Of a stretch of 23,461 bases of DNA, positions 378-22,130 are shown one piece after another. The notes under the pieces are model-generated. The model did not search any database. It was given only the letters and a program-made list of their open reading frames with translations, and was not told the DNA's origin. Each line of letters begins with the position of its first letter. Positions within the stretch are counted from its first letter, which is position 1. A program made the translations under genes and the position numbers. The DNA is from a virus, in the IMG/VR virus record IMGVR_UViG_3300009008_000259, positions 1-23,461 of that record; one strand, written 5' to 3'.

Positions 378-557
378 ATGGAACCAATAAAAACCTTAAA
401 CGATTATATAGAAGCATACAACGACAGCATTTATCACACAATTAGAAGTCATGGCGTACCCGCTCATTTTATTGACCATGAAGAAATGGAAAACTGGGTG
501 CTAAACAATGAAGGACTGTATAACCATGCTATCGAGTGTGGTGTAACTGACATATAA
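378..557 (+). CDS. small hypothetical protein, 59 aa
   Basis: A short open frame beginning at an ATG 5 bases after a good ribosome binding site (AAAGGAG). The product starts MEPIKTLNDYIEAYND and ends ECGVTDI. It is acidic and probably helical, with several histidines and no membrane segment. It sits 45 bases after the previous gene and about 50 bases before the next, in the same direction. I recognise no family. The support is the ribosome binding site, the intact frame and its fit between two same-strand genes. Confidence 0.55.
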   Translation: MEPIKTLNDYIEAYNDSIYHTIRSHGVPAHFIDHEEMENWVLNNEGLYNHAIECGVTDI

Positions 558-607
558 CAAACCAAACCGACCTCGGCAAGTCAGAAAACTGCCGGAAAGG
601 GAAAATT

Positions 608-838
608 ATGGAATACACTATTAACAGCCGAAAATATAAGAGTGAGATAACATTTAGCCGACCCGGATCATCCTATGTTTTTGTAGACCTGGGCGGCAGA
701 GAGGGTTCTCTCGGTCACCAGATATGTGAGGGGGGTTTGCTGATGGGGGAAACCATCACAGCCGAAAACGTCAACCAAGAAGAGTTTGAAACCATCTGTA
801 AAAGGTGGTGGGCAGCATTTCTCAGGAATGAACGATAA
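608..838 (+). CDS. hypothetical protein, 76 aa
   Basis: Unrecognised small protein. The first half looks like beta strand (SSYVFVDLGGREGSLGHQIC) and the second half like helix (QEEFETICKRWWAAFL), suggesting a compact alpha/beta fold. The ribosome binding site is purine-rich (GGAAAGGG) and comes directly after a short inverted repeat, CGGCA at 574-578 with TGCCG at 590-594. Bases 661-780 are clearly richer in G+C (over 50 percent by my count) than the rest of the window, which may mean a different history for this gene. A minus-strand frame over the same bases is its shadow. Confidence 0.55.
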   Translation: MEYTINSRKYKSEITFSRPGSSYVFVDLGGREGSLGHQICEGGLLMGETITAENVNQEEFETICKRWWAAFLRNER

Positions 839-861
839 TCTGCAATAAAATAATATAACCG

Positions 862-879
862 AGCCCGGTTCGCCGGGCT
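862..879 (+). promoter_or_regulatory. GC-rich UUCG-type hairpin between genes
   Basis: AGCCCGG and CCGGGCT are perfect inverted repeats around a TTCG loop, so the RNA would carry a very stable 7-bp stem capped by a UUCG tetraloop. The stem is followed by TCCAAAAAAAGG and not by a T tract, so it does not look like an intrinsic terminator for + strand transcripts. It lies about 25 bases before the next start codon. UUCG hairpins of this kind occur between phage genes as processing or stabilising elements; that role is inference. Confidence 0.5.
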
Positions 880-905
880 TCCAAAAAAAGGAGAGAAGAA
901 TAAAT

Positions 906-1187
906 ATGCAAAAAACATTTATATTTTATACAGATCCGGGACATGGCTGGGGGAAGGTACCAATAAAACTCTTAATAAATCTGGGGATTGCAGACAAGAT
1001 CTCTACATTCAGTTATACAAGAAATGGGTTTGCTTTTCTTGAAGAGGACTGTGATTTACCCCTTTTCATTAAAAAATTAAACACAATAGGAGTAACCCCA
1101 AAATTCAAACCGCAACATACAGATAGAAATAGTAGAATCAGAAATTACCCATATTATAGAAAGGAGTTATATGCCAATGAAACATGA
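906..1187 (+). CDS. hypothetical protein, 93 aa
   Basis: The beginning FIFYTDPGHGWGKV followed by a later LEEDCD motif resembles a small phage protein family of unknown function that I have seen in other tailed phages; I cannot name it. The layout suggests alternating strands and helices (residues 1-60) and then a basic tail (PKFKPQHTDRNSRIR). There is no membrane segment. The ribosome binding site AGGAGAGAAG lies about 10 bases before the ATG. The 3' end overlaps the start of the following small membrane protein by 17 bases, so the two are probably co-translated. Confidence 0.6.
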   Translation: MQKTFIFYTDPGHGWGKVPIKLLINLGIADKISTFSYTRNGFAFLEEDCDLPLFIKKLNTIGVTPKFKPQHTDRNSRIRNYPYYRKELYANET

Positions 1188-1317
1188 TAAAGAATGGGAC
1201 TTTTATGAAGAGCCACCTTTAATAGAAAAGATTTTAATCAAAACAATACAGGTAATCTCATGTGGAGCTGCTATGGTTATCCTTTATACTTTAACAGTAA
1301 TTATACTTAGCTTATAA
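1171..1317 (+). CDS. small single-pass membrane protein, 48 aa
   Basis: A strong ribosome binding site (AAAGGAG, 1160-1166) lies 4 bases before this ATG, inside the end of the previous gene. The product begins MPMKHDKEWDFYEEPP, a charged, cytoplasmic-looking N-terminus. From about residue 21 to the end it is hydrophobic (SCGAAMVILYTLTVIIL), long enough to span the membrane once. Function is unknown. Small inner-membrane phage peptides of this size include superinfection-exclusion and host-takeover factors, but nothing here singles out one of these. The coding call rests on the ribosome binding site, the intact frame and the transmembrane pattern. Confidence 0.55.
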   Translation: MPMKHDKEWDFYEEPPLIEKILIKTIQVISCGAAMVILYTLTVIILSL

Positions 1318-3199: not shown

Positions 3200-4102
3200 A
3201 TGAGTCTAGCCCAGTTATTCAAAAACATAGATACAGCTCCTTCAAGTTCTAAACACAGAAGATATGGTTGGTTAAATATAAAATGCCCGTACTGCAACAA
3301 AGGAGGAGATCATTACCATTTAGGATTCCATATTAAAAGGCAATATTTTAATTGCTGGTCTTGTGGCAAAAAACCCCTGTTTAAGACTTTAAAAGTTTTA
3401 ACGGGGCTTCCCTATTCAGAAATGAAGGAAATGCTTAAAACAGCCAATAAAGGTAATTTAAATGGCATATCCAAGCAACAATACAAAGATCCAAAGGTAC
3501 CTTTTAAATTCCCACCTAAAACAAAACAAATCACAAAACTAAAACACCACAAAGAGTATCTCAAAAAAAGGGGATTCAAACCTGAATACCTGATGAAAAA
3601 ATACAAAATCAAAGGAACTTCCATCATAAGTAAATTAGATAATCTTGATTTGAGTTGGAGGATTGTTATTCCTATCTATCAAAACGGAGAAGCTGTAACA
3701 TGGCAAACCCGGGCAATTGGTAAAAAAGGACTTCCATATATTGCTTGTCCGAAAGAAAGAGAAAGGATTAACATTAAAAACTTAATTTACCCAGAAGAAA
3801 CAAGTCATACTCTTTTTCTGGTAGAAGGATTGTTTGATTGTTGGAAGGTTAGATTGGCTGGGTTTCCGGCTATTTGTGGTTTTGGGGTAGGATTGAACTC
3901 GCAACAAATAAGAATCTTAAGCAAAAGAAGATTGATTATCTTTTATGATGGGGATAATGCTGGAAGAATAGAAGCACAAAAGATTAAAGAAAGGATTGAA
4001 TTTATAAAGGGAAAAGAAGTTCAAATTGCAAAATGCCCAGAGGGAAAAGACCCCGGGGATTTAACAGTTAAACAAATTAATCAAATTTTAAAGGAGTATT
4101 AA
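3200..4102 (+). CDS. DnaG-type DNA primase, zinc finger plus TOPRIM
   Basis: Makes RNA primers for DNA synthesis. The N-terminus carries a zinc-binding module, CPYC at 29-32 and CWSC at 52-55, with histidines between them. The C-terminal half carries a TOPRIM fold: the catalytic glutamate in LFLVEGLFD (about 207) and the metal-binding aspartates in IIFYDGDNAGR (about 250). At 300 residues it is about half the length of cellular DnaG and has no helicase-binding C-terminal domain, closer in scale to the primase half of T7 gp4. The gene follows the helicase after an 18-base gap with an AAGGAAAAG ribosome binding site. It presumably works with the DnaB-like helicase at 7158. Confidence 0.88.
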   Translation: MSLAQLFKNIDTAPSSSKHRRYGWLNIKCPYCNKGGDHYHLGFHIKRQYFNCWSCGKKPLFKTLKVLTGLPYSEMKEMLKTANKGNLNGISKQQYKDPKVPFKFPPKTKQITKLKHHKEYLKKRGFKPEYLMKKYKIKGTSIISKLDNLDLSWRIVIPIYQNGEAVTWQTRAIGKKGLPYIACPKERERINIKNLIYPEETSHTLFLVEGLFDCWKVRLAGFPAICGFGVGLNSQQIRILSKRRLIIFYDGDNAGRIEAQKIKERIEFIKGKEVQIAKCPEGKDPGDLTVKQINQILKEY

Positions 4103-4288: not shown

Positions 4289-4464
4289 GGTGAAGTCTGA
4301 TATTAGTTATCGGTTTAGCGGCTGATGATACGGGGTAGGATTAACTCAAAAAGTTAATAGCCCTACACTACCCCAAATATCATAAACCTTTGTAGGAAGG
4401 TAGTCGAATATAAATCAGCCTACAAAGAAAAGCAGTTAAATTAATAATTTAAGGAGGGTTTAGT
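4289..4464 (+). promoter_or_regulatory. structured non-coding gap, candidate RNA element
   Basis: No convincing open frame, but dense inverted repeats. TGATA plus GGGGTAG (4326-4338) pair with CTACCCC plus TATCA (4368-4382). Inside lies TTAACT/AGTTAA (4341-4346 and 4352-4357, CAAAA loop), which can also stack with an alternative GTAGG/CCTAC pair (4335-4339, 4362-4366). CTTTGTAGG (4388-4396) pairs with CCTACAAAG (4419-4427). GGCTGAT (4320-4326) can pair with ATCAGCC (4414-4420), overlapping the previous stem, so a pseudoknot or a switch between foldings is possible. TTAAATT/AATTTAA (4436-4442, 4446-4452) touches the ribosome binding site of the next gene. No tRNA fold or T-tract terminator is seen. 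Confidence 0.5.
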
Positions 4465-4818
4465 TTGATAAAAAGAAAAAAAGAAGAAATCGCAATTCCA
4501 AAAATCAAAGGCCAAACTACACAAACTATCCATGTTTTTGAGGATTGGTATCTAACAGCAGATAAATTTCAATTCATTCTATTCAGGTTAACCAAAACCA
4601 AAACCGGAAAAAACATTGGCAAATACTACGCTACAGATTTTAGATTTTACCCCACCTTGGAAGACATCTTACTCTACCTTCAAAGAAGAAATCTCTGGGA
4701 CAAACTGGAAAAAGGGGATGCAAAAACCCTTATTGAAATGCGAAATATTCTTGTAGAAACAAAAGAATTGTTTTCCAAAATCTTAAAAGAAAAACTCTAC
4801 AAAATTAAGAAAGGATGA
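4465..4818 (+). CDS. hypothetical protein, 117 aa, TTG start
   Basis: Starts at TTG, 6 bases after a very strong ribosome binding site (AAGGAGGG, 4451-4458). The product is basic. Its centre (FEDWYLTADKFQFILFRLTK, then KYYATDFRFYPTLEDILLYLQ) recalls a small family of phage proteins with the pattern WYxxxDKYxxIL followed by YxxLExAL; DUF5405 is a possible relative, but I am not sure. The C-terminal third is helical. A 7-bp hairpin overlaps the first bases of the ribosome binding site, and with the weak start codon this may allow translational control. It sits between the structured gap and the initiator gene, with a 3-base gap to the latter. Confidence 0.65.
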   Translation: MIKRKKEEIAIPKIKGQTTQTIHVFEDWYLTADKFQFILFRLTKTKTGKNIGKYYATDFRFYPTLEDILLYLQRRNLWDKLEKGDAKTLIEMRNILVETKELFSKILKEKLYKIKKG

Positions 4819-4821
4819 ACA

Positions 4822-5835
4822 ATGATTACCAAAAAGAAAGAAAAAATGACCTATGATCGGATGGAAGAACCAATAGTTTTGTCAAAAGGAGTCCTCGATC
4901 TTCTTCTTCAATCCAAAAAACCAAGTGACTGTATCGCTCTCTACACTTTTCTATATTATACGGCAAAATGGCAGAAAACCAATCATCCCAGAGCAACGGT
5001 AGCATACATTGGAAAGGCTTTAAATTGGGGAAAGACAAAAACAAGGGAAGTCAAGAAGGAGCTGAATTTATTAGGTTTAATTGAAAATATTCGGTATGTT
5101 GATGATCAAAATAAAACTATGGGATGGTATGTGAAAGTTAATTTCATCTGGGGGAGAGAGACCCACCCATCGGAAATTGAAGGGGTGGAAAAAGCCACCC
5201 ACCGTTTTTCCCAGGGGGTGGCTTTTCCGAACCCAAATGCTTTAAGTACTAATAGAGTAAATGCTTCAAGTACTGATAACTCTCCCCAAGATGGGATTCA
5301 GGGGTCTTTTTCAAATGGAAATATTTCTAATTCCAATCAATCAACCCAAATTAATAAATCAAATCAACCCAAACAAAAGAAATCAGATAAACCCATTAAG
5401 ATTATTAAAGTCAAAAAAACCAAACAACAAAAACAATATACATCCATTTCAAAGAAATTAGCTCAAATCATTTCATCCCATAAAAGAATAAATAAAACTT
5501 CATCCATCCATAAATGGAATAAAGATATTGAATTACTCTTTACCAAAGATTTGAAAATTAACGGAGATACCCATGAAGATATAAAGAAAAGAATTGATTC
5601 CGCTTTACAGTTTTACGCCAAAAACATAGGAGGTACTTATATTCCAGACATCCAAAGTGGTTCATCTTTTCGCAGAAAGTTTATAAGTCTTGAGAATGCC
5701 ATGCAGAACAGGGGGTATATTTCCGCAGATCTTGTAAAGAAGAGTGCCCCGAATATGATCCTTCCCAGTAAAGAAACCCTCGATAGATATACCATTGATG
5801 ATATGAATGCAACCGTAGTCGATCCGACAATTTAA
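4822..5835 (+). CDS. winged-helix replication initiator protein (lambda O-like)
   Basis: Residues 15-110 read as a winged helix-turn-helix: VLDLLLQSKKPSDCIALYTFLYY, then NHPRATVAYIGKALNWGKTKTREVKKELNLLGLI and a beta wing with GWYVKVNFIWG. A polar low-complexity linker rich in N, S, Q and K follows (about 150-205), then a helical C-terminal part (about 205-305; WNKDIELLFTKDLKINGD) like those of phage initiator and DnaD-type proteins. The family binds origin DNA and recruits the helicase-loader complex. The next gene is a DnaC-like loader and a DnaB-like helicase follows, the same logic as lambda O and P. The linker-coding DNA holds a cluster of repeats (see 5161-5470), as in lambda O. Family-level call by architecture. 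Confidence 0.72.
   Translation: MITKKKEKMTYDRMEEPIVLSKGVLDLLLQSKKPSDCIALYTFLYYTAKWQKTNHPRATVAYIGKALNWGKTKTREVKKELNLLGLIENIRYVDDQNKTMGWYVKVNFIWGRETHPSEIEGVEKATHRFSQGVAFPNPNALSTNRVNASSTDNSPQDGIQGSFSNGNISNSNQSTQINKSNQPKQKKSDKPIKIIKVKKTKQQKQYTSISKKLAQIISSHKRINKTSSIHKWNKDIELLFTKDLKINGDTHEDIKKRIDSALQFYAKNIGGTYIPDIQSGSSFRRKFISLENAMQNRGYISADLVKKSAPNMILPSKETLDRYTIDDMNATVVDPTI
5161..5470. other. candidate replication origin inside the initiator gene
   Basis: This stretch of the initiator gene combines several origin-like signals. The hexamer CCACCC occurs four times in alternating orientation (5163-5168 and 5195-5200 forward; 5183-5188 and 5216-5221 reverse). A 14-base arm at 5187-5200 is matched by an inverted 13-base arm at 5216-5228. 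Two 20-base direct repeats (5235-5254, 5259-5278) differ at 2 positions and have a 24-base period. A 12-base direct repeat (5339-5350, 5362-5373) has a 23-base period. An A-rich, T-poor tract follows (about 20 percent G+C at 5401-5460 by my count). The lambda origin has the same plan. Function is inferred. Confidence 0.5.
5235..5278 (+). repeat. two direct repeats of 20 bases (iteron-like)
   Basis: Copy 1 starts AAATGCTTTAAGTAC at 5235 and copy 2 starts AAATGCTTCAAGTAC at 5259. Over 20 bases they differ at two positions, and the start-to-start distance is 24 bases, a little over two helical turns. They fall in the low-complexity linker of the initiator gene and encode the similar peptides NALSTN and NASSTD. 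A recent duplication of linker codons is an alternative to an initiator-binding iteron. Only two copies are present. Confidence 0.65.
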
Positions 5836-5843
5836 GGAGCAAA

Positions 5844-6464
5844 ATGAAAAGACCCAGAAAAGATGATGTTGTATTTAGATTATTGGAAACAAGATATAAA
5901 ATACCAGTAGGATTGTTAGAAACCATGAAGGAGATACTCCCAAACAAGACTGCCAAAGATTATTTAAATAAAAGCCTTTTCATTTTCGGAGCTCCGGGAA
6001 CCGGGAAAACAATCTTCAGCTTGTGCCTTTTATATTACTATTTGAAATCCAAAGCTCCTACAACAGCAAATTCAATTTCTTTTATATCTATTCCTGATTT
6101 ATTAATCTCCTTAAAGAATTATTATAAGTTACTTTCTGCCAAACCTGATTTTGGCATTGAAATTGATCCAATAACAAACCAGTTAAATACCCCAGAAGGG
6201 ATTTTAACTAATCAATGCAAGTATACCCGTTATCTAATTTTGGATGATCTTGGGGTTGGAAGAAGTACAGATTGGACAAATGAAATACTCTATTCCATAA
6301 TAAATCACCGGTATGTTCACCGGACAAAAGGACATTATACTATAATCAACACAAACTTCTCCAAAAAGGAACTTTCTGAAAAGGTAGATGAGAGGATTGT
6401 TTCCAGAATATTTGAAATGGCAGAAGTCCTTAATTTTAAAAAACAACTAAGGGGTAATATTTAA
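5844..6464 (+). CDS. DnaC-like AAA+ helicase loader
   Basis: An ATPase expected to deliver the DnaB-like helicase onto single-stranded DNA at the origin or at stalled forks. Walker A is GAPGTGKT at residues 49-56, Walker B is YLILDDLG at about 130-137, sensor I is the asparagine region TIINTNF, and the arginine-bearing DERIVSRIFE comes near the C-terminus, all in the order seen in DnaC and DnaI. At 206 residues it is shorter than E. coli DnaC (about 245), mainly in the N-terminal helicase-binding region. Its ribosome binding site AAGGAG overlaps the end of the initiator gene, so the two are probably made together. Confidence 0.85.
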   Translation: MKRPRKDDVVFRLLETRYKIPVGLLETMKEILPNKTAKDYLNKSLFIFGAPGTGKTIFSLCLLYYYLKSKAPTTANSISFISIPDLLISLKNYYKLLSAKPDFGIEIDPITNQLNTPEGILTNQCKYTRYLILDDLGVGRSTDWTNEILYSIINHRYVHRTKGHYTIINTNFSKKELSEKVDERIVSRIFEMAEVLNFKKQLRGNI

Positions 6465-6594
6465 TCGTCAGATTGTCTGTAGGACGTTTTAAGGGGTTAG
6501 GGACATGCTTGGGTATGCAGATACCCCTTAATTTGTCTTAAACAGCACGTAAAGGGCGTTATTTTTAAAATAATTTAAACATGAAAGGGGTCAA
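6465..6594 (+). promoter_or_regulatory. structured leader with alternative hairpins
   Basis: A 130-base non-coding gap between the loader gene and 6595. CAGA-TTG-TCTG (6470-6480) forms a small hairpin. TTAAGGGGT (6489-6497) pairs with ACCCCTTAA (6523-6531), but GGGTAT (6511-6516) also pairs perfectly with ATACCC (6521-6526). These two foldings share bases and exclude each other. Further on, TTATTTT/AAAATAA is an AT palindrome (6559-6573). The arrangement resembles leader or attenuator switches, or an additional origin-associated element. No T-tract terminator follows either stem. Function is inferred. Confidence 0.45.
6505..6531 (+). CDS. possible 8-codon leader peptide
   Basis: ATG at 6505 opens a frame encoding MLGYADTP followed by TAA. 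An SD-like AAGGGG (6491-6496) lies 8 bases upstream, which is good spacing. The frame lies across the two competing stems described for this gap, so a translating ribosome would decide which stem can form, as in classical leader-peptide attenuation. A frame this short can arise by chance, so this remains tentative. Confidence 0.25.
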   Translation: MLGYADTP

Positions 6595-7157: not shown

Positions 7158-8747
7158 ATGGCTGAAGATCTGAGTTACCACATTGAAAGAAGAATTGTTA
7201 CCGGTCTTATTTTAAGTACAGAATATCTTGAAAAGATTGAGCCTTTAATCAAGATTAAGTTCTTCAAAACAGAAGAATCCAAGAGAGTTTCCAATTGGTG
7301 CTTAAAGTATTTCAGGAAATATAAGATAGCCCCAAATAAAGAAATCAAAGAAATCTATTTCTCCAAAATAGAAAAACTGGATAATGAAGTTGCTGGACTT
7401 ATTGAAGATACCCTTTTCAGTCTGGATCAGGAATACAAAAGATTCCTTAATAATAAAAATCAATTAAATGTAGAACTCCTTCTGGATGATACAGAACGGT
7501 ACTTTAAGAAAAGACAACTCCAGATATTGATTCAAGAAGCTCAGGAAGAATTGGACAATGACAATTTACAGGAAGCCACAAGGATTGCCAATGAATTTGA
7601 GCCTGTACAAAGAATAAAAACTAAAAGCATAATTCCTTTAAGTTCTCCGGAAATGATCAGGACTACATTTGAAGATCAATTTAATCCTTTGTTTAGTTAT
7701 GGTGATACTCCTTTAGGGAATTTAGTAAACAGATCTTTATGCCGGGGTTGTTTCACAGCTTTGCTTTCCCAGAATAAGGGTGGAAAAAGCTTTACTTTAG
7801 GGGAGATGGCCTTAAAAGGGGTTTTTAATGGAAATAATATTGCTTTCTTCCAAGCAGGGGATATGTCTGAAGCTCAGCAGATGCGTAGGCAGGGAATAAG
7901 ATTGGTTGGAAAAAGCGATCTCCCGGAATATTGTGGAAGATTGTTTATTCCTGTTTTGGATTGTGCCTATAACCAGAACGGAGAATGTGATTTGGCTGAT
8001 TGCGAAAGTGATGAATCTCCTTTTGAGAACTACACAGTAGGTCAATTAAGAGAAGAAGCAGAAATTAACAATATAAAAACAGAAGAATTGAAAGAAATAG
8101 TAGAGGACTATCCCCATCATAAACCTTGTTCTAACTGTATCCGGGGTTTTGATTCTAAGAAGTATAAAAACTTTAAAGGTACCCTTTGGTATAAAATCAG
8201 GGATGCAGTGGAGCCTTTAACATGGAAGGAGGTATATCATGCGGTTAAAAAAAGGTATGTAGTTAAGCTTAAAAGATTGAGAATGTTTACTTATGGAAAT
8301 GAAACTTTAGATGTTTCCACAATGAAACAAGATTTACTTCTCTTGGATAAAGAAGGATTTAAAGTAGATATTGTAATTGTGGACTACATGGACATCATGG
8401 CAGCAGATGCAGATACAAAACATCTTTCCATAAGGGACCAAGAGCATAAGAAATACCAAAGATTGAGAGCTCTAAGCACCGACCGGAATATTTTAGTTCT
8501 TGGGGCTACACAAGCAGATGCCCAATCTTTTAATAAGAGAGTTTTGGATAAGACAAATTTCAGTGAAGATAAACGTAAATTGGATCATTTAACGGATTTA
8601 TTTGGTTTAAATATGACCAAAGAAGAAAAAGTTAAAGGGATCATGAGATGGAACAGTATTGTAAGCAGGGAAAGTGAAGGGGCAAAATTGGTGCATGTAG
8701 CACATAGACTCCAGATAGGAAAACCTTCCTTATTTTCTTTTTATTAA
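7158..8747 (+). CDS. DnaB-like replicative helicase with cysteine-rich insertion
   Basis: The ring helicase expected at the fork. The N-terminal half (1-170) is helical, like the DnaB N-terminal and linker regions. The RecA-like domain has Walker A SQNKGGKS (204-211), Walker B VIVDYMDIM (D409), and LVLGATQ as the following motif. The end (RESEGAKLVHVAHRL) fits the final strand region. Walker A and Walker B are about 198 residues apart, against roughly 100 in E. coli DnaB, because of an inserted segment (about 265-345) with cysteines 269, 277, 282, 324 and 327 that may bind metal. Length is 529 residues, against about 470 for DnaB. No good ribosome binding site is seen before the ATG (GGATTGATTATATAAA). 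Confidence 0.82.
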   Translation: MAEDLSYHIERRIVTGLILSTEYLEKIEPLIKIKFFKTEESKRVSNWCLKYFRKYKIAPNKEIKEIYFSKIEKLDNEVAGLIEDTLFSLDQEYKRFLNNKNQLNVELLLDDTERYFKKRQLQILIQEAQEELDNDNLQEATRIANEFEPVQRIKTKSIIPLSSPEMIRTTFEDQFNPLFSYGDTPLGNLVNRSLCRGCFTALLSQNKGGKSFTLGEMALKGVFNGNNIAFFQAGDMSEAQQMRRQGIRLVGKSDLPEYCGRLFIPVLDCAYNQNGECDLADCESDESPFENYTVGQLREEAEINNIKTEELKEIVEDYPHHKPCSNCIRGFDSKKYKNFKGTLWYKIRDAVEPLTWKEVYHAVKKRYVVKLKRLRMFTYGNETLDVSTMKQDLLLLDKEGFKVDIVIVDYMDIMAADADTKHLSIRDQEHKKYQRLRALSTDRNILVLGATQADAQSFNKRVLDKTNFSEDKRKLDHLTDLFGLNMTKEEKVKGIMRWNSIVSRESEGAKLVHVAHRLQIGKPSLFSFY

Positions 8748-8978: not shown

Positions 8979-9827
8979 ATGGCAAAAGTGACAAGGGCAG
9001 ATCTAATCAAGACTGCTAATGATTTGTGTGAAAAACTGGAATTGGAAGACTCGAAGGGGGGTCCGGCAATTCCCACAACAAAGACAACAAAAACCAGTAC
9101 AATCCAGAGTGGCATTATTGAAGCTGCTGGATATATTGAAGAGGAAGATTTACAGGATCTGGAAGTAGAAACAAAAGATACCCTGAAATCCCTTGAATGT
9201 ATGCCCAGTTTCGGTAAGGAAGAACCTGAAGATGAGCCCCTGGAAGAATCAGAAGAAGATGCTGATGAACCCGAAGATGAAGAAGATGATTCTGAAGAAG
9301 AACAGGATGAGGAGGATGAACCCGAAGAGGAACCAGAACCGGAAGAAGAAGTAGAACCACCTTCCCTTTTGGATGTTTTGAAATCCACAAAGAAACTTGC
9401 AGATTTAAAAGAGTTAGTTGAAAAAGAAGATACTTTTAAAACTTTAAGAAAAGGATTATCCAAGTTTAAAGGATTGCAGGGACCTCGGCAGTTGAAACCA
9501 AAAATGGTTGCACTATTGAAAAAACAAAGGAAGGCTGAAGAACCAAAACAGGAAGAAGTAAAATCAGAAAAGAAAAAAGCTCCGGAAAAGAAAGCAGCTG
9601 CCTGGTTAACCCGATATCAGGCTGTTTTTAATTTCATAAAAGAAAAGAAAGTTTTCACCATGAAAGAAGCAATCATGGGGTCAGATGCCCTCTTTGTTGC
9701 AGCAGGGGGTAACAGCAATACAAAAGCAACCAATGTTGTAAGATATATTATGCAGGGGTTAGTTGCTTTTAAGGTACTTTCCTTAAAAGATGGGACTTAT
9801 ACTTTAAACGCTAAGTATAATAAATAA
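8979..9827 (+). CDS. acidic-linker protein, possible replication accessory factor
   Basis: I do not recognise a named family. A helical N-terminus (TRADLIKTANDLCEKLELE) is followed by a very acidic tract (about residues 80-126, runs of E and D). Next come a SAP- or HeH-like helical segment (LLDVLKSTKKLADLKELVEKE, about 128-180), a lysine-rich linker, and a C-terminal winged-helix-like domain (about 205-282; YQAVFNFIKEKKVFTMKEAI). Similar architectures occur in phages near RecA and SSB genes. It is the first gene behind the promoter at 8888, with a strong ribosome binding site (AAAGGAG), and is followed by the Mom-like gene, clamp and polymerase. The acidic tract may contact other replisome proteins; this is inference. 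Confidence 0.65.
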   Translation: MAKVTRADLIKTANDLCEKLELEDSKGGPAIPTTKTTKTSTIQSGIIEAAGYIEEEDLQDLEVETKDTLKSLECMPSFGKEEPEDEPLEESEEDADEPEDEEDDSEEEQDEEDEPEEEPEPEEEVEPPSLLDVLKSTKKLADLKELVEKEDTFKTLRKGLSKFKGLQGPRQLKPKMVALLKKQRKAEEPKQEEVKSEKKKAPEKKAAAWLTRYQAVFNFIKEKKVFTMKEAIMGSDALFVAAGGNSNTKATNVVRYIMQGLVAFKVLSLKDGTYTLNAKYNK

Positions 9828-9842
9828 TCATTAGATGATTAT
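9824..9842 (+). promoter_or_regulatory. hairpin that holds the start codon of the Mom-like gene
   Basis: ATAATCAT (9824-9831) and ATGATTAT (9835-9842) are perfect inverted repeats around a 3-base TAG loop. The ATG start codon of the Mom-like gene is the first three bases of the right arm, and the left arm contains the stop codon of the previous gene. No ribosome binding site precedes this ATG, although nearly all neighbouring genes have one. The hairpin could hide the start codon until ribosomes finishing the upstream gene, or a trans-acting factor, open it. The repeat is directly visible; the function is inferred. Confidence 0.5.
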
Positions 9843-10563
9843 CCGTAGAAAAAAGAAAGCAGAAAAGATATCTAAGGGTTTTGTCTTTTCTGCTTTTTCA
9901 CCTTTAAGGTTAATAGGAAAGCCCATTATTATTGGTTTTCAGAGTGATCAGTTGAAGGTAGTTGAAATCAACAGGAATATTGCCAATAAGCTGATCCTTG
10001 AAAATCACTACTCAAAGAAGTTCTATAATGCATCTTATATACATTTAGGGTGCTACATCAAAGAAGAACTGGTAGGGGTACTCCAGTTTGGATATGCCAT
10101 GAACCCAAACAGTATGGGAAGTGTTGTAAAAGGCACAGAATTAAATGAGTATTTAGAATTAAACAGAATGTGGTTTAAGGGTGGGGTGTTTAAAAACATC
10201 AAAAGCATGGCAATCAGTTACTCTTTTAAGTATATTAAATATAAGTATCCTGATATTAAGTGGATTCAGTCTTTTGCAGATGAGAGGTGTTTTAAGTTTG
10301 GTATTGTCTATCAGGCCAGTAACTTTACTTATCACGGAGAACATACAGCAATCTTCTGGGAATTTGATGGTGTTTATTATCACAACAGTTTAATGACCAG
10401 AAATCCAAACCTGAGTAAAAGTGCAAAATACATTCAGGATAACAGGGAAAAGGCTGTTAAATATACATTAAGGCAATTCAGGTACTTATATTTTCTCAAA
10501 CCCAAAGAAAGAAAAAACTGCCTAATACCCCAGCAAAAATACCCAAAACATTATAAGGAATAA
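9835..10563 (+). CDS. Mom-like GNAT-fold DNA adenine modification enzyme
   Basis: Resembles the Mom family, named for phage Mu Mom, which converts adenines in phage DNA to a carbamoylmethyl derivative and so protects it from restriction. Features in order: ILENHYS with the H58-Y59 pair, a GNAT-like strand and turn (LGCYIKEELVGVLQFG), LELNRMWF, IKSMAISYSFKYIK, then IQSFADE (D149) and GIVYQASNFTYHG. The order and spacing of these motifs match what I know of Mom proteins, where a histidine-tyrosine pair and an aspartate are important. At 242 residues it is close to Mu Mom in size. It lies between an accessory factor and the clamp. No Com-like gene is adjacent. The start lacks a ribosome binding site and lies in a hairpin. 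Confidence 0.75.
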   Translation: MIIRRKKKAEKISKGFVFSAFSPLRLIGKPIIIGFQSDQLKVVEINRNIANKLILENHYSKKFYNASYIHLGCYIKEELVGVLQFGYAMNPNSMGSVVKGTELNEYLELNRMWFKGGVFKNIKSMAISYSFKYIKYKYPDIKWIQSFADERCFKFGIVYQASNFTYHGEHTAIFWEFDGVYYHNSLMTRNPNLSKSAKYIQDNREKAVKYTLRQFRYLYFLKPKERKNCLIPQQKYPKHYKE

Positions 10564-10565
10564 AA

Positions 10566-11576
10566 ATGGAAATAAATAGGAAAGAGCTGTTACGGGCTTT
10601 AAATATTGTAAAGCCCGGGATCGCTACAAATGAAGATATTGAACAGACTACAAGTTTTGCTTTTATGAAGGAGAGGATTGTTTCTTATAACGACAGTATA
10701 AGTATCAATGTTCCTTTTGCTTCAGGGATTGAGGGGGCTGTTTCTGCAAAAGAATTGTTTGCCCTTCTGTCCAAAATAAAAGAAGAAACTCTAACTTTTA
10801 CAACAACTAAGAAGGAAATCCTTCTTGGAATTGGAAAAAAGGCAAAAGCTGGATTAGCTTTCTCACAGAAGATAAAACTTCCGCTGAATAAGATTGATAA
10901 AAACCAAAAGTGGATACCGGTGCCAAAAAGACTCATAAAAGCTTTAGACTTCTGTACTTTCAGTGTTTCAAAAGATCACAGCAAGCCCTTACTGGCCTGT
11001 ATCCATGTTAAAGGAGATAAAGTAGAAAGCACTGATAATTTCAGGATCAGTCAATATATTCTGGATGAAAAGTGTCCTGAGTTTATCCTTCCTGGGGATG
11101 CTGTTAAACATTTGAAAAAGTTACCCGTAGTAAAATATTGTGTCGGTAAGTCGTGGGTTCATTTCCTGACCTCTGATGATGCTGTATTTTCTTGCAGAAT
11201 ATTCAATCAGGTTTACCCGGATACTTCAAGGGTAACCTCTATTTCTGGAAAAAAGATGCGTTTTCCTGAAGAAATAAAAGAGGGAGTTGAAAAAGCTGTT
11301 ATCTTTTGTGAAAAAGAAGACGGAGCAAATAACTTAATGGTTGATATTACTTTAGATAAAAACTCCCTTACAATTACAGGAAAAGGAAAAGTTGGCTGGT
11401 TTAAGGAAACAACCAAAGCAAGATATGTAGGGGAAAGAATCTCCTTCAGGATTAATAGTAAATTCCTTCTGGATATTTTGGAAAAAACAAGAATATGCAA
11501 TATTGATTACAAAGCAAAAAAGATAAGTTTTAAAACATCTGAATGGATACATTTATTTTTACTTTTGGTTGAATAG
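10566..11576 (+). CDS. DNA sliding clamp, DnaN-like
   Basis: Ring-shaped processivity factor for the polymerase. The N-terminus (NRKELLRALNIVKPGI, then ERIVSYNDSISINV) has the usual start of a beta-clamp subunit, and KVESTDNFRISQYIL (about 154-168) corresponds to the conserved T-D-x-x-R-L strand of DnaN. The length of 336 residues suits three tandem clamp folds, slightly short of cellular DnaN (about 366). The extreme C-terminus (WIHLFLLLVE) takes the place of the usual MPM-type ending. It precedes the exonuclease and polymerase genes, and the clamp loader is at 14535. The ribosome binding site is AAGGAA, with a 2-base gap from the Mom-like gene. Sequence divergence keeps this below certainty. 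Confidence 0.8.
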   Translation: MEINRKELLRALNIVKPGIATNEDIEQTTSFAFMKERIVSYNDSISINVPFASGIEGAVSAKELFALLSKIKEETLTFTTTKKEILLGIGKKAKAGLAFSQKIKLPLNKIDKNQKWIPVPKRLIKALDFCTFSVSKDHSKPLLACIHVKGDKVESTDNFRISQYILDEKCPEFILPGDAVKHLKKLPVVKYCVGKSWVHFLTSDDAVFSCRIFNQVYPDTSRVTSISGKKMRFPEEIKEGVEKAVIFCEKEDGANNLMVDITLDKNSLTITGKGKVGWFKETTKARYVGERISFRINSKFLLDILEKTRICNIDYKAKKISFKTSEWIHLFLLLVE

Positions 11577-11583
11577 GAAAAAT

Positions 11584-12813
11584 ATGGAAGGTTTTTTTGA
11601 TACTAAAGAAATACAATCAGATCATTTTAAAAAAGGAAAGCATCTGTCTTGTGTCTCCTGTGGGCTGTATAAGCACGTTCTTTCTCCAAAGATAAAACCC
11701 TATGGGGATTTTAAAAAGAAAGTAATGGTAATAGAAGAAGCCCCCGGAAAGAATGAAGATAGAAGGGGCAAACCTTGGCAGGGCAAGATGGGGAATAAAT
11801 TGAAAAGGAAGCTCCGGCATCTGGGTTTTGATTTATTTAAAGATGCTGTTTCTTTAAACAGCTGCCAATGTCGTCCTCCAAAAAATGCAACACCAGATAC
11901 CCACCAGATAGATTGTTGCAGAACAAAAGTTCAACAGGCGATTCATGAGTATAAGCCTAAAGTTATTATTCTTTTAGGAAATTGTGCTATTGAATCTGTT
12001 ATTGGCAAATACTGGTTAAAAGACTTAGGTGGAATTACTAAGTGGAGGGGTTGGACAATCCCGGATCAGAATTATAAAGCTTGGATTGTTCCAACATATC
12101 ATCCCAGTTTTATTGATCGTCAAAAGGAACCGGAGATTGTAAATCTATTATGGAAACAAGATCTTCAAAAAGCAATTGACTGCATTGAAAAACCTATGCC
12201 TGTAATGCCTGTATTTGAAGATAGAATCGTTTACTGTTATTCTGATAGGGAACATATCAAAGCAATGCAGGAAGTCGCTAAATCAAAGTATTTTGCTTTT
12301 GATTATGAAACTACAGGACTAAGACCATATCGAAAAGGGCATAAGATAGTATGTACCAGTGCAGCTATTAAGGATAAAAGTTTCGTTTGGGAAAATACTC
12401 CAGAAAGAAACAAGACCTTTTCCAGAATCTTAAGGGATATGCGAATTAAGAAAAGTTCCCATAATGTTTTCTTTGAAGATATGTGGAGTTCTCATTTCAT
12501 ATCAAAAGTAAATGGCTGGGATTGGTGCAGTCAAAACACAGCTCACATTTTGGATAACAGACACGGGATAACAGGATTAAAATTCCAAACTTATATTCAT
12601 TTTGGTATTGCAGATTATGACGGAGATGTTTCTTATTATTTAAAATCAGTAGATCAAAAGAAACACGGGGCAAATAGTTTCAACAGGATAGAACATTTTA
12701 TTCAGAAGTTTGGGATTAAAAAACTCTTGACCTATTGTGGATTGGATTCCTTATTTGGATATAAATTGACAATGATACAAAAGGAGATGATTGAAAATGA
12801 TTCCAACAACTAA
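11584..12813 (+). CDS. uracil-DNA glycosylase fused to 3'-5' exonuclease domain
   Basis: Residues 20-200 match family 4/5 iron-sulphur uracil-DNA glycosylases: C23-x2-C26, EEAPGKNED with the catalytic-site E52, CRPPKNATP starting at C96, C111/C112, and the HPS motif at 173-175. Residues 235-405 match the DEDD proofreading domain of family A polymerases: FDYETTG (D240, E242), SHNVFFED (294-299) and YCGLD (Y384, D388). The product would remove uracil and proofread, working with the polymerase encoded next, which lacks its own exonuclease. SPO1-type polymerases carry a UDG-like domain in the same chain, as I recall; here the chain is broken after the exonuclease. I chose ATG 11584 behind TAGGAAAA over an upstream TTG at 11569. 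Confidence 0.85.
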   Translation: MEGFFDTKEIQSDHFKKGKHLSCVSCGLYKHVLSPKIKPYGDFKKKVMVIEEAPGKNEDRRGKPWQGKMGNKLKRKLRHLGFDLFKDAVSLNSCQCRPPKNATPDTHQIDCCRTKVQQAIHEYKPKVIILLGNCAIESVIGKYWLKDLGGITKWRGWTIPDQNYKAWIVPTYHPSFIDRQKEPEIVNLLWKQDLQKAIDCIEKPMPVMPVFEDRIVYCYSDREHIKAMQEVAKSKYFAFDYETTGLRPYRKGHKIVCTSAAIKDKSFVWENTPERNKTFSRILRDMRIKKSSHNVFFEDMWSSHFISKVNGWDWCSQNTAHILDNRHGITGLKFQTYIHFGIADYDGDVSYYLKSVDQKKHGANSFNRIEHFIQKFGIKKLLTYCGLDSLFGYKLTMIQKEMIENDSNN

Positions 12814-14182
12814 AGATGCTCATAGATTGATTCATGAAGGGACCCTTGCCTTAAGCAATGCCACTAAATATGGCATGAGGGTTGATGTAGATTATTGTAA
12901 GAAAACGGATGCAGAATTGAAAAATCGCCTTTTTGATCTGGAAGATGGGGTAAAGAAGTCAAAATTGGGTAAAACATGGAAAAAGGCTTTTCCAAAAATC
13001 AATATAAGAAGTGATCAACAATTGTCTTTTCTCCTTTTTAAGATATTAAAACTTCCAGTAATTGATTATACCGATAAAGGAAATCCCAGTGTAAATGCTA
13101 CAACCCTAAATATTCTCTCTAAAAAGATTCCAGATATAGAATTGATCAATAAATATAAAAAGATATATATTGTACACAATACATTTATTAAGAGCTTTTT
13201 AAGGGAACAGGTAGACGGGTATCTCCATCCTTTCTTTAACCTGAATAATATCAAAACATTCCGGTCCAGTTCGGGGAACCCTAACTTTCAGCAGTTTCCT
13301 AAAAGGGACAAAGAGCAGAGAACATTGGTAAGACAGGCAATTCGACCCAGAAAAGGACATCAATTGATTGAAGTTGATTATAGTGGAATTGAAGTTCGGG
13401 TTGCTTGCTGTGTAACAAAAGATAAGAAATTGATATATGATACCATCCATGGGGATATGCATAGGGATATGGCAATCGAAATCTTTATGCTGGATAAATT
13501 TGAGAAAAAGAAGTTTGAGAAAGAATTAAGGTTTGCAGCTAAAAGTGGTTTTGTTTTTGCTCAATTCTATGGGGATTATTATGGTAATAATGTTCCCTCC
13601 CTGTTAAGGCTTGCTGAATTACCCCTTGAAGGACGGTTTAAGAAAACAAACAGTAAAGAACTATTAACGGGGATTCATTTAGGAGAGAATTTAATCAATA
13701 AGGGAGTTAAAGATGTAGATCAATTTTCAGACCATGTAAAAAACATTGAACATCTTTTCTGGAATAAACGGTATAAAGCATATGGAAAATGGAGAAAGGA
13801 TCAGGTTGCCCGGTTTAAGAAGAAAGGATATCTTAAAATGGTAACTGGTTTTACATGCAAGGGCAATATGTCAAAAAATGAAATCACAAATGCCCCAATG
13901 CAGGGACCGGCTTTTCATTGCCTGTTAAAGTCATTTATTCAACAAGATAAGGATCAAAGAAGAAATAAGTGGAATACAAAGGCAATTGGACAGATCCACG
14001 ATGCAATTGTTTTAGATGTTGATCCAAATGAGAAAGATTATATCTTAGAACACCTAAATAATACAATGACAAAAAGGCTGCCTGAACAATGGGATTGGAT
14101 AATAACTCCATTAGAAGTTGAAGCAGATATATTTCCAGTGGATGCAACTTGGGCAGATGAAGCAGAATCTTTAGTTTTATAG
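12797..14182 (+). CDS. family A DNA polymerase, polymerase domain only
   Basis: The replicative polymerase. It starts just where the exonuclease ends in an intact Pol I and contains thumb, palm and fingers: the template-binding pattern FRSSSGNPNFQQFP (155-168), motif A IEVDYSGIEVR (D194), motif B RFAAKSGFVFAQFYG (R245, K249, Y258), and motif C QIHDAIVLDV (H401, D402). Motif C has alanine where E. coli Pol I has glutamate. Motif B has one extra residue between lysine and tyrosine, as in a phage subclade with FVFPxFYG. Length is 461 residues. ATG 12797 sits 10 bases from AAGGAG (12781-12786); a TTG at 12791 is also possible. It overlaps the exonuclease gene by 17 bases, in the +1 frame. Confidence 0.9.
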   Translation: MIPTTKDAHRLIHEGTLALSNATKYGMRVDVDYCKKTDAELKNRLFDLEDGVKKSKLGKTWKKAFPKINIRSDQQLSFLLFKILKLPVIDYTDKGNPSVNATTLNILSKKIPDIELINKYKKIYIVHNTFIKSFLREQVDGYLHPFFNLNNIKTFRSSSGNPNFQQFPKRDKEQRTLVRQAIRPRKGHQLIEVDYSGIEVRVACCVTKDKKLIYDTIHGDMHRDMAIEIFMLDKFEKKKFEKELRFAAKSGFVFAQFYGDYYGNNVPSLLRLAELPLEGRFKKTNSKELLTGIHLGENLINKGVKDVDQFSDHVKNIEHLFWNKRYKAYGKWRKDQVARFKKKGYLKMVTGFTCKGNMSKNEITNAPMQGPAFHCLLKSFIQQDKDQRRNKWNTKAIGQIHDAIVLDVDPNEKDYILEHLNNTMTKRLPEQWDWIITPLEVEADIFPVDATWADEAESLVL

Positions 14183-17688: not shown

Positions 17689-18736
17689 AATATCAAAACA
17701 AATTAAACGTAGACTTGTTAAAAAGAAAAAAGAAAAAACAACCGGTCTGTGGACTCCACCAAAAGGAACAGATAAGTTTCTGTTGAGTACAGGAAGTACC
17801 CTTGTAGATTTAGCCATTACCGGCAGAAGGTTTACAGGGGGAGGAATCCCCATGGGTATCTTTGTAGAGATATTCGGTGCGAGTGCAAGGGGAAAAACTG
17901 TTATGTTATTAGAAATGGCAGGGAATGTACAAAGGATGGGTGGGGATTATCTCTTCTTAGATCCAGAAGCAAGAGTTAATCCTTCCTTTGCTTCTATCTT
18001 TGGTTTTAATATCAGTGATGATAAGTATAAGAAACCCAGTATAGTGGAAGATGCTTTTACCTTAATAAAGAAATGGAAACCAGAAGGAAAAGGACCCCAT
18101 GTTGTTTTCATCGACAGCATTGCTGCCCTTGTTGCAAAAGAAGAAGATGAAGATAAAGGAGATGAATACAGCGGAGCAAGAAGGGCAAGGGATTTTTCTC
18201 AACAACTTAGGCAAATAACCAGAATAATAAATCAAAGGGATCTTTTAGTTATTTGCACAAATCAGGTCAGGCAGAATCTTGGGGCTGGTCCTTATGGCAA
18301 AAAAACAAAAGCTACAGGGGGGGAAGCTCCTAAATTCTATTCTTCTTTACGGTTGGAATTAAAAGCCCCTTCAAGTGAAGGAGTAGTTAAAGAAAAGAAG
18401 AAGATTAAAGGGGTTTTGCATACCCGGAATATTGGGGTTCAAACAGATATTTTCATCGAAAAATCAACCATCGCAACTCCATATCAAACCGGATTAATGC
18501 GGATTCTTTTTGATTATGGTGTAGATGATATTGTTCCCAATTTGAGATTCTTAAAAAAGAATACCGGCAGTTCCCAATTTGTTTTAGGAGGAGAGAATAT
18601 AGGAAATACCCTAAATGCTGCTGTTTCTTATATAGAAGAAAACAGTCTGGAAGGAGATTTAAAAGAAGAAGTTACAAATCTTTGGCTCACTATTCAAGAA
18701 CAATTAACCCCAAACCGTAAAAGGAAAATAAGATAA
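17675..18736 (+). CDS. RecA/UvsX-like recombinase
   Basis: Forms filaments on single-stranded DNA and carries out strand exchange. Walker A is GASARGKT (68-75), in place of the usual GPESSGKT. Walker B is VVFIDSIAAL (about 143-152), and the loop-1 region with ARRARDFSQQLRQ follows. Then come ICTNQVRQNLG (the strand ending in NQ) and the loop-2 and C-terminal core elements (KATGGEAPKFYSSLRLEL), all in RecA order. The length of 353 residues equals that of E. coli RecA. The basic N-terminus (KQIKRRLVKKKKEK) is longer than usual. It follows SSB and a possible mediator, as expected for a recombination module. The ribosome binding site is a G-run (CAGGGGGG) inside the preceding gene. Confidence 0.9.
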   Translation: MIRNKISKQIKRRLVKKKKEKTTGLWTPPKGTDKFLLSTGSTLVDLAITGRRFTGGGIPMGIFVEIFGASARGKTVMLLEMAGNVQRMGGDYLFLDPEARVNPSFASIFGFNISDDKYKKPSIVEDAFTLIKKWKPEGKGPHVVFIDSIAALVAKEEDEDKGDEYSGARRARDFSQQLRQITRIINQRDLLVICTNQVRQNLGAGPYGKKTKATGGEAPKFYSSLRLELKAPSSEGVVKEKKKIKGVLHTRNIGVQTDIFIEKSTIATPYQTGLMRILFDYGVDDIVPNLRFLKKNTGSSQFVLGGENIGNTLNAAVSYIEENSLEGDLKEEVTNLWLTIQEQLTPNRKRKIR

Positions 18737-19440
18737 TGAAAAGGAGGATGACAAAAAAGAAAAATACAATAATGTCTCATTTTCCAGGGGAGTATCTGCA
18801 AAGAAAGATTCAAACAGATACTCCTCTTATATCTGGAACATATCTTTGTTTTATAAAACCAGATCCTCCGGAAGCATGGAATCATTTTCCTATTTGTCGA
18901 ATGGGATTAATTGATTTTAAAGAGGATCAATGGCAAGAATCTAAAATAATCTTGGGATGGATTGGTCCCTTGCCTGTTCTTTCTTTAGATGAATTAGAAG
19001 ACTTTTCTCCAAGGGATTCTGGGTTTATCTTTTATTTTATTGGGTATATGGATGATTCGGAGTTGTTTATTTTTGAAAAAGGTCCCTTTTATCAAAGTAT
19101 TGATGCCAAGTTTCAGGAAGGGGAAGCTGGTCAGTTTATTTATCAGGTAAACTCAAGAACAGCAAAATCAGTTCCTATTTCTGAATGGAAAGATGGAAAT
19201 TGGTATCCTGTAAACGAGGAAAGAACATATACTGTGTGTACTTTAAAGGAGATGATAAATAGAGAATACAAAGAACAAAGTTTAGGTTCTGCCCTTAAAA
19301 CAGAATCAAAAAAGGGATATTACATTTTTGAAATTAATAAGGAATCAATTACACCAATTCATCAGTGGAATAGTGGTTGGGCTGCATTATCCGGCAATAA
19401 AACCAGAAAAATCAAGGAAAGGATAGGTGTTGTATGTTAA
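18736..19440 (+). CDS. hypothetical protein, 234 aa
   Basis: Starts at the TAATG overlap with RecA. The N-terminal third (LISGTYLCFIKPDPPEAWNHFPICRMGLIDFKEDQW and GWIGPLP) loosely recalls the DUF551 pattern, in which a GxYL strand is followed by a W-containing hairpin and a W-x-PLP ending. The similarity is weak and I do not assign it. The remainder is rich in strands and aromatic residues (FIFYFIGYMDDSELFIFEKGPFYQ), suggesting a beta-rich soluble protein. There is no signal peptide or metal motif. It overlaps the endonuclease VII gene by 7 bases. Its role in the recombination operon is unknown. Confidence 0.6.
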   Translation: MKRRMTKKKNTIMSHFPGEYLQRKIQTDTPLISGTYLCFIKPDPPEAWNHFPICRMGLIDFKEDQWQESKIILGWIGPLPVLSLDELEDFSPRDSGFIFYFIGYMDDSELFIFEKGPFYQSIDAKFQEGEAGQFIYQVNSRTAKSVPISEWKDGNWYPVNEERTYTVCTLKEMINREYKEQSLGSALKTESKKGYYIFEINKESITPIHQWNSGWAALSGNKTRKIKERIGVVC

Positions 19441-19924: not shown

Positions 19925-20989
19925 ATGATTGAAAAGATTCAAATAGAAAACTTCCAAAAACATAAAAACATAGAGATTAAATTAGATCCCGGGGTTAATG
20001 TCATTGTTGGGAGTTCTGATACTGGTAAATCCAGTATCGTACGGGCTTTGAAATGGTTATTTCAAAATAGACCACAAGGAGATGGTTTTAGAACCCATGG
20101 GATTAAACCAAAAGATGAAACCAGAGTATGTGCTGTATTTGAAGATGGTCAGACCCTTTCCCGGGATAGGTCTAATAAGGTTAATCAATACACCTTAAAT
20201 GCAGATACTAAATTAAAAGCCCTAAGATCAGATGTTCCTCAAGATGTTAAAGACATTGCAAAGATGAAAAGTTTCAATCTGCAAAGCCAGCATCCAGAAG
20301 ATCAGTATTTCTTATTAACAGATTCTCCGGGGAATGTGGCAAAGAAGTTTAATAAAGTTACAAATTTAGAAGTTATGGATAGAGCTCTTTCCAATATAAA
20401 ATCAAAAGTAACAGCAGCAACTCAAAAAGATAAGTTCTATGATGAAGAGATAAAAAACAAAAAAGAAGAATTGAAAGAATTGAAATGGGTACCCGAAGCA
20501 AAAAGGGAAGCCCTGCAAATCAAAGAACTCAAAGATACAATAGAAGATACACAAGAAGATTTATCTGCCCTTTATCGGTTATTAGAATCCATTACAGGTA
20601 TTGAGGATAAATTAAAAAGTTACAAAAATGTAACTTTTGCTTTAGAGGCATTAAAACAGTTAAAAATTGATGAAAAGGTTTTGGAAGATAAAAAGAAGCA
20701 CTTAAATACCTTAAAGAATACCTGTAAGGTGATCTATAAGGGACAAACAGACCTTCTGACATATAAAGGCATTCCTAAAGCAATAAAAGCCTTAAATAGG
20801 CTAAAAAAGCAAGATAAGCTTATTTCTGATAAAAATACAGAAAGAATTAAACTGATACAAAAAACAGAACAATATATAGATTTAAAATCAAAAACCAAAA
20901 AACATATATCCGAATTAAATAAAATGGAAAAGGAGTTTGGGGATTACTTAAAAGATAAAGGATGTCCTTTATGTGGGAGGAAAATGTAA
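19925..20989 (+). CDS. SbcC/Rad50-like ATPase, N-terminal half with zinc hook
   Basis: The N-terminal half of an SMC-type nuclease ATPase (T4 gp46, SbcC, Rad50). The beginning MIEKIQIENFQKHKN is typical. Walker A is GSSDTGKS (29-36), and the Q-loop is NLQSQHPEDQYFLL (Q120/Q122). From about 150 to 340 it is a long coiled coil. It ends exactly at a CPLC zinc hook (C347, C350) with only four residues after it, so there is no return coil, signature motif or Walker B. Those lie in the separate gene at 22130. The break appears genuine: it falls at the hook, is followed at once by the nuclease gene, and no frameshift remnant is seen. Confidence 0.88.
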   Translation: MIEKIQIENFQKHKNIEIKLDPGVNVIVGSSDTGKSSIVRALKWLFQNRPQGDGFRTHGIKPKDETRVCAVFEDGQTLSRDRSNKVNQYTLNADTKLKALRSDVPQDVKDIAKMKSFNLQSQHPEDQYFLLTDSPGNVAKKFNKVTNLEVMDRALSNIKSKVTAATQKDKFYDEEIKNKKEELKELKWVPEAKREALQIKELKDTIEDTQEDLSALYRLLESITGIEDKLKSYKNVTFALEALKQLKIDEKVLEDKKKHLNTLKNTCKVIYKGQTDLLTYKGIPKAIKALNRLKKQDKLISDKNTERIKLIQKTEQYIDLKSKTKKHISELNKMEKEFGDYLKDKGCPLCGRKM

Positions 20990-20991
20990 AC

Positions 20992-21906: not shown

Positions 21907-22130
21907 ATTTAGAAAGAATTAAGCAAAAGATTGATCGGAGTAAATCTGAAAAGGACAGATTGGAAGGAAGATTGGAAGGATATCTGCAAGAACTGAAAGA
22001 TATGGGCTTTGAAAATATTGATCAGGCTGAAAAAGCAATAGTTAAAATTGAAGAGGAGCTTATAGACCTAAAGACAGAATTTGAAGATTCCTTTTCCGAT
22101 TTTAAAACAACATATCAGGATTTAATATAA
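21903..22130 (+). CDS. small coiled-coil protein, 75 aa, likely part of the SbcCD complex
   Basis: Almost entirely charged helix (IKQKIDRSKSEKDRLEGRLEGYLQELKDMG, then QAEKAIVKIEEELIDLKTEFEDSF), with a short break near DMGFENID that could let it fold back as a helical hairpin. It overlaps the nuclease by ATGA and the next ATPase half by TAATG, so all three are translationally coupled. Position and shape suggest it supplies coiled coil for the split ATPase, whose N-half has about 190 residues of coil and whose C-half has only about 70. No sequence motif proves this. Confidence 0.6.
   Translation: MNLERIKQKIDRSKSEKDRLEGRLEGYLQELKDMGFENIDQAEKAIVKIEEELIDLKTEFEDSFSDFKTTYQDLI

Follow-up and report, generated by a model that had tools for sequence, protein, structure and literature searches.

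A candidate theta-type replication origin embedded in the initiator gene of an uncultured phage lineage

The DNA analyzed here, called the window throughout, is a virus fragment of 23,461 bases from an incomplete contig. Along the window, a helicase gene (1814) is followed by a primase (3200), small genes, the initiator, a DnaC-like helicase loader (5844) and DnaB (7158), with a clamp, a polymerase and further replication genes downstream of DnaB. The central genes and domains are as follows.

3200..4102, plus strand: DNA primase (phrog_47, E 8.8e-37)
4822..5835, plus strand: initiator gene, coding for a winged-helix domain, a disordered linker and a helical C-terminal domain
4879..5145, plus strand: winged-helix coding part, residues 20-108 (AF2; HMM E down to 3.8e-53 in relatives)
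5422..5709, plus strand: C-terminal helical domain, residues 201-296 (AF2 and comparison with relatives)
5844..6464, plus strand: DnaC-like helicase loader (phrog_50, E 2.7e-32; PRK08116, E 2.3e-23, below the PRK08116 cut-off)
7158..8747, plus strand: DnaB-like helicase (phrog_19, E 1.3e-23)

An earlier note, made from the sequence of the window, had placed a DnaC-like loader behind the initiator, and the phrog_50 match agrees well with that reading. AF2 run on the initiator sequence alone gave a pLDDT of 37; the usable model came from 12 aligned rows, in which residues 20-108 form a winged helix (pLDDT about 82-95) and the linker at residues 110-199 is disordered (pLDDT <50). Foldseek searches with this 12-row model returned generic winged helices only (best E 0.04), and the window initiator had no O-like match among protein families. 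Its C-terminal domain is common to the relatives L115, L134, L140 and G004 (E 2e-11 for G004 against the C-terminal part of the window initiator), with another type in L114, L149 and L132. L134, with the C-terminal domain of the window, matches phrog_391 'replication initiation O-like' (1e-5) and phrog_4880 'replisome organizer' (1.2e-5), and the L132 initiator matches phrog_678 'O-like' at 5.6e-11.

Several other features of the window deserve mention in their own right. The small gene directly before the initiator (4465-4818) matches phrog_154 'replication initiation protein' (3.5e-11), and its product has weak matches to coliphage and Salmonella phage proteins, one of them named DUF5405. 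Upstream of the initiator, a structured element (GATATT..TTATCnGTTTAGCGGCnGATRATACGGGG[loop]CCCCAAATATC) lies at 4296-4390 of the window and at 3680-3773 of the relative L052. Compensatory changes separate the two copies and Rfam holds no match; among 81 sources the element is clear in these two and weak in L074, and it is possibly a new structured RNA. The intergenic stretch after the loader gene (6465-6594) forms a stable hairpin (z -2.8) that is kept in a near-identical contig. A family-A DNA polymerase is encoded in two overlapping genes, 11569-12813 (UDG-like/exonuclease part) and 12791-14182 (polymerase part); relatives in the lineage also have the two parts, adjacent or separated, and the split looks lineage-wide. 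At 19925-22714, a putative SbcC-like ATPase, read from the sequences, occurs in two pieces (19925-20989 and 22130-22714) that flank an SbcD-like nuclease gene (20962-21906). Strong RNA folds mark the beginning of a gene whose product is very acidic and repetitive (8979-9194; mRNA fold z -6.7 against synonymous permutations) and two gene junctions (9766-9975 and 18691-18865; z about -5 to -5.8).

The repeats on which our argument turns are coded within the disordered linker of the initiator, where they span gene nt 342-457 and follow a step of 24.

5140-5158 / 5280-5298, no strand: outer arms of a long nested inverted repeat, in the window only
5163..5221, no strand: box A cluster, CCACCC at 5163+, GGGTGG at 5183, CCACCC at 5195+ and GGGTGG at 5216, two interrupted palindromes
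5187-5200 / 5216-5228, no strand: inverted repeat GGAAAAAGCCACCC / GGGTGGCTTTTCC, 14/13 bases, one bulge, 11 bases exact
5219..5221, plus strand: TGG, 20 bp before the GCTT of iteron 1 (spacing in homologues)
5235..5254, plus strand: iteron 1, AAATGCTTTAAGTACTAATA, conserved in L114 and L115, both fetched by primase
5259..5278, plus strand: iteron 2, AAATGCTTCAAGTACTGATA, period 24
5336..5437, plus strand: A-rich tract, a possible unwinding region by base composition
5339-5350 / 5362-5373, plus strand: 12-base direct repeats, AATCAACCCAAA twice, exact, period 23

Most of these elements had been reported in the earlier note as parts of an origin in the style of lambda O, and we recovered the four CCACCC hexamers in alternating orientation (5163+, 5183-, 5195+, 5216-), the near-perfect 14/13-base inverted repeat and the two 20-base direct repeats (18/20 identical, period 24). 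The hexamer is ordinary in total (8 in the window against 6.4 expected), and four of the eight fall within 59 bp; at that rate we put the expected number of clusters of this kind below 1e-5 per window. When the gene was permuted among synonymous codons, the score of the 20-base pair was reached in only 1-2 of 60-100 permutations, the best inverted repeat alone was borderline (3/60 to 6/100), and the score of the 12-base pair was attained in 16/60. The 12-base repeat is thus exact with the period of 23 claimed for it, but it is not distinctive and is absent from L114 and L115, and it is probably not part of the signal. Iterons of the lambda type are each an inverted repeat of 18-19 bp; here the units of box A are interrupted palindromes, but the 24-bp-spaced iterons repeat directly and have no more symmetry than a CTTNAAG core. 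The nested inverted repeat at 5140-5158/5280-5298, missed in the earlier reading, accounts for the strong fold of 5140-5300, which is far more stable than expected (z -5.6 against dinucleotide shuffles; z -4.7 and 0/300 against synonymous permutation). Comparison of relatives gave no support for this outer stem or for the 12-base repeats.

The A-rich tract downstream is present and strand-biased as proposed (5336-5437: 59% A, 17% T, 4% G), but it is no outstanding low-stability site within the window. The least stable 80-bp stretch near it starts at 5480, and neither is outstanding, with 3.7% (40 bp) and 1.3% (80 bp) of window positions less stable than the region. In relatives, the AT content after the iterons is about the gene mean. 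Cumulative GC skew over this 23-kb fragment dips without clear reversal around the initiator gene and lends the origin no support.

The window initiator seemed an orphan until scans with a polymerase motif and a primase profile revealed its lineage. Direct look-up returned no relatives because short peptide patterns miss proteins that are 40-50% identical. The loader, DnaB and RecA as single-sequence queries recovered one near-identical contig only, which begins inside the loader gene and is therefore without the origin region, and an alignment of loaders yielded no or poor search patterns. Rfam gave nothing at gathering scores, and we took its weak eukaryotic matches at relaxed E as chance. 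Among 391 genomes from the class to which the Ruminococcus seed belongs, only the seed genome itself gave a match. L114 and L115, fetched by primase alone, carry the iteron pair of the window (AAATGCTTTAAGTnCTAATA twice, period 24) at the same place in the linker. A pattern scan for the pair found 13 viral and 10 genomic stretches, of which 12/13 and 3/10, respectively, lie within the linkers of winged-helix initiators. Searching every fetched locus with a winged-helix profile defined 19 distinct members including the window (E < 1e-25); L150 had to be added by hand, because its contig cuts through the winged-helix domain. Twelve of the 19 had been fetched by the iteron pattern, and seven had been chosen without it (the window, L114, L115, L111, L122, L071 and L124). 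The winged-helix homologues are 37-51% identical, and some form close groups (for example L131 with L149, and L132 with L141 and L142), so they do not amount to 18 independent events.

A composite signal is present at the same place of the gene in all 19 homologues, which come from viruses and prophages: a GC-rich cluster of TGG/CCA inverted repeats, followed by the 20-bp iterons, usually two with 24-bp spacing. A single recognizable copy is found in L111 and L122, and the second copy of L071 is degenerate. A TGG precedes the iteron core by exactly 20 bp in 15/19 and by 19 bp in 4/19; with a TGG background rate of 1.9%, the binomial tail for 15/19 is 4.6e-23, a figure to be read with the members not fully independent. 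The iteron is almost invariant (a mean of 1.7 bits per position, inflated by ascertainment), and the box is a palindrome that varies from phage to phage. The case named in the earlier note as refuting the origin, relatives with the initiator and without the repeats, was not found among the 19, every one of which keeps iteron and TGG at fixed spacing. The repeats are thus conserved as DNA in the relatives that keep the initiator domain, as in origins of the lambda-O/SPP1 type.

The comparison indicates that selection acts on the DNA here, and not only on the peptide, because the GGGTGG/CCACCC hexamers occur in all frames and orientations, synonymous sites are fixed, and C-terminal domains are swapped while the signal stays. 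The hexamers number 34 in the 2172 nt upstream of the iteron versus 2 in 14679 nt elsewhere in the 19 genes, and they occupy all three frames in both orientations. Valine at the TGG box is encoded by GTG in 12/12, a codon that makes up 15% of valine codons elsewhere in the genes, and the alanine of the first iteron is coded by GCT in 7/7 non-ascertained members versus 37% elsewhere. Where the spacing changes from -20 to -19, the peptide frame shifts and the DNA motif is kept. By sequence identity the signal ranks among the best-conserved DNA of the initiator gene: in most relatives 39-72 nt of it are 83-89% identical, against 69-86%, mostly 69-80%, for winged-helix stretches that are shorter or scattered. 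Moreover, the C-terminal domains belong to at least three unrelated types by PHROG (phrog_270, phrog_678, or phrog_2514/391/4880), and the winged helix and the DNA signal are kept while the type of this domain differs.

These observations bear directly on a reading in which the pattern is a by-product of protein repeats (NALSxN) or of a protein-binding linker. The iteron lies in one reading frame (frame 0) in 19/19, which leaves some room for a peptide role, and one relative has a weak match to PF20080 (E 0.0023, below cut-off). The fixed GCT and GTG codons argue otherwise, as do TGG boxes that lie in different frames over different peptides, and L124, whose first copy reads NAYR instead of NALS, yet both of its DNA copies share the same changed core. 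We consider protein repeats a highly unlikely source of the pattern. The PF20080 'ALTTAQ repeat' match falls in the L149 initiator (427-1266, minus strand), over the peptide that the iterons encode; among short protein repeats in annotations, some may be translated DNA iterons. A comparably slight chance attaches to the fold of 5140-5300 being an mRNA structure, whether attenuator, pause or stability element. The fold scores already given favor it, but no conservation of the outer arms was found, only 7/19 homologues fold strongly (z <= -3) in the segment before the iteron, the palindromic boxes account for part of the fold, and iteron hairpins of lambda have been described likewise (PMC7466680).

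Two further possibilities concern where replication begins. The initiator might bind inside its own gene as an operator, for autoregulation or as a roadblock, with the origin elsewhere; palindromic sites in the gene for a DNA-binding protein would fit, and terminator-like hairpins were flagged on both strands at 5183-5200. A site several hundred bases into the gene would be unusual for an operator, however, iteron-type repeats of differing sequences recur at the same linker position in most initiator genes of the lineage, and the lambda repeats at the corresponding linker position are the origin. This makes an operator improbable. Alternatively, replication could start in the structured intergenic DNA at 4289-4464 or at 6465-6594. 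Both are more stably folded than their shuffles (z -3.5 and -2.8), and L052 carries a counterpart of the element at 4296-4390 in a comparable position. That element, which resembles a structured RNA, recurs in one other locus only among the 81 sources, whereas the in-gene signal is found in 19/19; an intergenic start is, in our judgment, very improbable.

The reading that we prefer is that 5163-5278, together with the DNA just downstream, is very probably a theta-type replication origin located in the phage's own initiator gene, in the part that encodes the linker. The earlier proposal of a candidate origin in the style of lambda O is thereby strengthened, by a signal kept in 19/19 homologues and by elements whose place and step resemble those of lambda. 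The repeats, their conserved anatomy and spacing, the selection at the DNA level and the gene order of initiator, loader and helicase are seen directly, and from them we infer how the initiator might bind and melt the DNA, how the helicase might be loaded and how synthesis might start. The winged-helix domain would bind one or both of two targets, the palindromic TGG/CCA boxes and the 24-bp iterons, and the two types of repeat may be read by one protein or by several. The fixed distance of 20 (or 19) bp between box and iteron suggests that bound initiator would build one ordered complex on the two, and that complex may strain the A/T-rich DNA downstream. The C-terminal domain and the DnaC-like loader would then place DnaB on the opened strands. 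The fixed spacing also offers a handle on how two classes of repeat build one initiation complex.

A loader gene stands next to the initiator in L114, L132, L134, L138, L140, L142 and L150, and near it in L131. Primase or DnaB lies nearby in the window, L134, L138, L140, L114/L139, L115, L111, L122, L071 and L124, which suggests phages with a replisome of their own. Other phages or prophages with the signal show initiator and loader only (L131, L132, L142 and L150); some of these loci are short, so the absence of primase or DnaB is no proof. It is tempting to speculate that the winged helix and the origin DNA behind it form a portable cassette, a reader plus its address, that moves between phages, an idea that we find plausible while stopping short of calling it probable. 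Such a cassette would have been joined to unrelated C-terminal domains, and the same origin would serve helicase loading in phages with their own replisome as well as in small phages that borrow that of the host. Its transfer is unproven because the winged-helix tree of the homologues gave no resolved topology.

Repeats of this kind extend to the wider lineage, gathered through the polymerase motif and the primase profile. Direct repeats beyond synonymous permutation (p <= 0.05) occur in 28/49 of its initiator genes, versus 3/106 control genes from the same loci (2/49 primases, 0/34 dnaB and 1/23 loaders); some of the 49 are A-rich and of low complexity, which makes their repeats less informative. 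Most repeats center between gene nt 300 and 530 and have periods of 12-24, and many are interrupted palindromes like those of lambda, with a sequence particular to each virus (TTAGCAAAAATGCTAA in L130, ACTGAGTACAAAAATGTACT in G004). In a panel of phages with a loader like that of the window, we located the strongest direct repeat in the gene that precedes the loader; in most cases it falls at gene nt 300-480, and it often exceeds synonymous permutation. Lambda O follows this pattern too. As in lambda-O/SPP1-type origins, the DNA-binding domain is thus followed here by repeats that exceed the needs of the protein. Other lineage members (G004/L045, L130, L084 and L078) resemble the window in gene order and linker repeats, some of them palindromic as in lambda; they differ in that each has its own iteron sequence and several are without a loader gene between initiator and DnaB.

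These results offer a concrete origin candidate for an uncultured lineage of phages with primase, DnaB, clamp and polymerase genes of their own, and suggest that initiation of the lambda/SPP1 type extends beyond phages dependent on the host replisome. Further, a search for initiator-linker repeats that exceed synonymous permutation could locate origins in many metagenomic phages.

Origins embedded in initiator genes are already known (lambda O, SPP1 38, probably 80alpha ORF20); the composite class appears to be new. Among the papers searched by text, neither the iteron sequence nor its peptide led to one on this signal, which does not prove novelty. In lambda, ori lies inside gene O, with iterons, adjacent AT-rich DNA and the loader gene P next (PMC3349717, PMC7466680), and the minimal unwinding unit consists of two iterons and AT-rich DNA (PMC7466680). 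The iterons of lambda O begin at gene nt 349 and follow in steps of 20, 24 and 23 (annotated positions). The window likewise has its iterons midway through the initiator gene, immediately behind the DNA-binding domain and with the loader gene next, and its two iterons match the number in the minimal unwinding unit of lambda. It has no detectable sequence similarity to lambda, however, and combines TGG/CCA palindromes with 24-bp direct iterons at fixed spacing, where lambda has four 18-bp iterons of one kind. Unlike lambda, the window has a loader of the DnaC/AAA+ type, codes its own primase, DnaB, polymerase and clamp, and has no outstanding AT-rich element.

SPP1 carries oriL inside gene 38, with phage-coded gp39 as loader and gp40 as DnaB (PMC6316719). 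By description, not by sequence, it is like the window in its origin within the initiator gene and in its phage-coded loader and DnaB; it differs in its use of host primase and polymerase and in its second origin, oriR. In Staphylococcus phage 80alpha, the ORF20 initiator and the DnaC-like loader ORF21 are necessary and sufficient for replication, and the origin is inferred to lie in ORF20 (PMC5499656). In another staphylococcal phage, phiNM1, the gene that precedes the loader has its strongest repeats at nt 379-435. 80alpha thus shares with the window an initiator with a DnaC-like loader and an origin inferred within the initiator gene, and differs from it in initiator sequence, in repeats and in the use of the host helicase.
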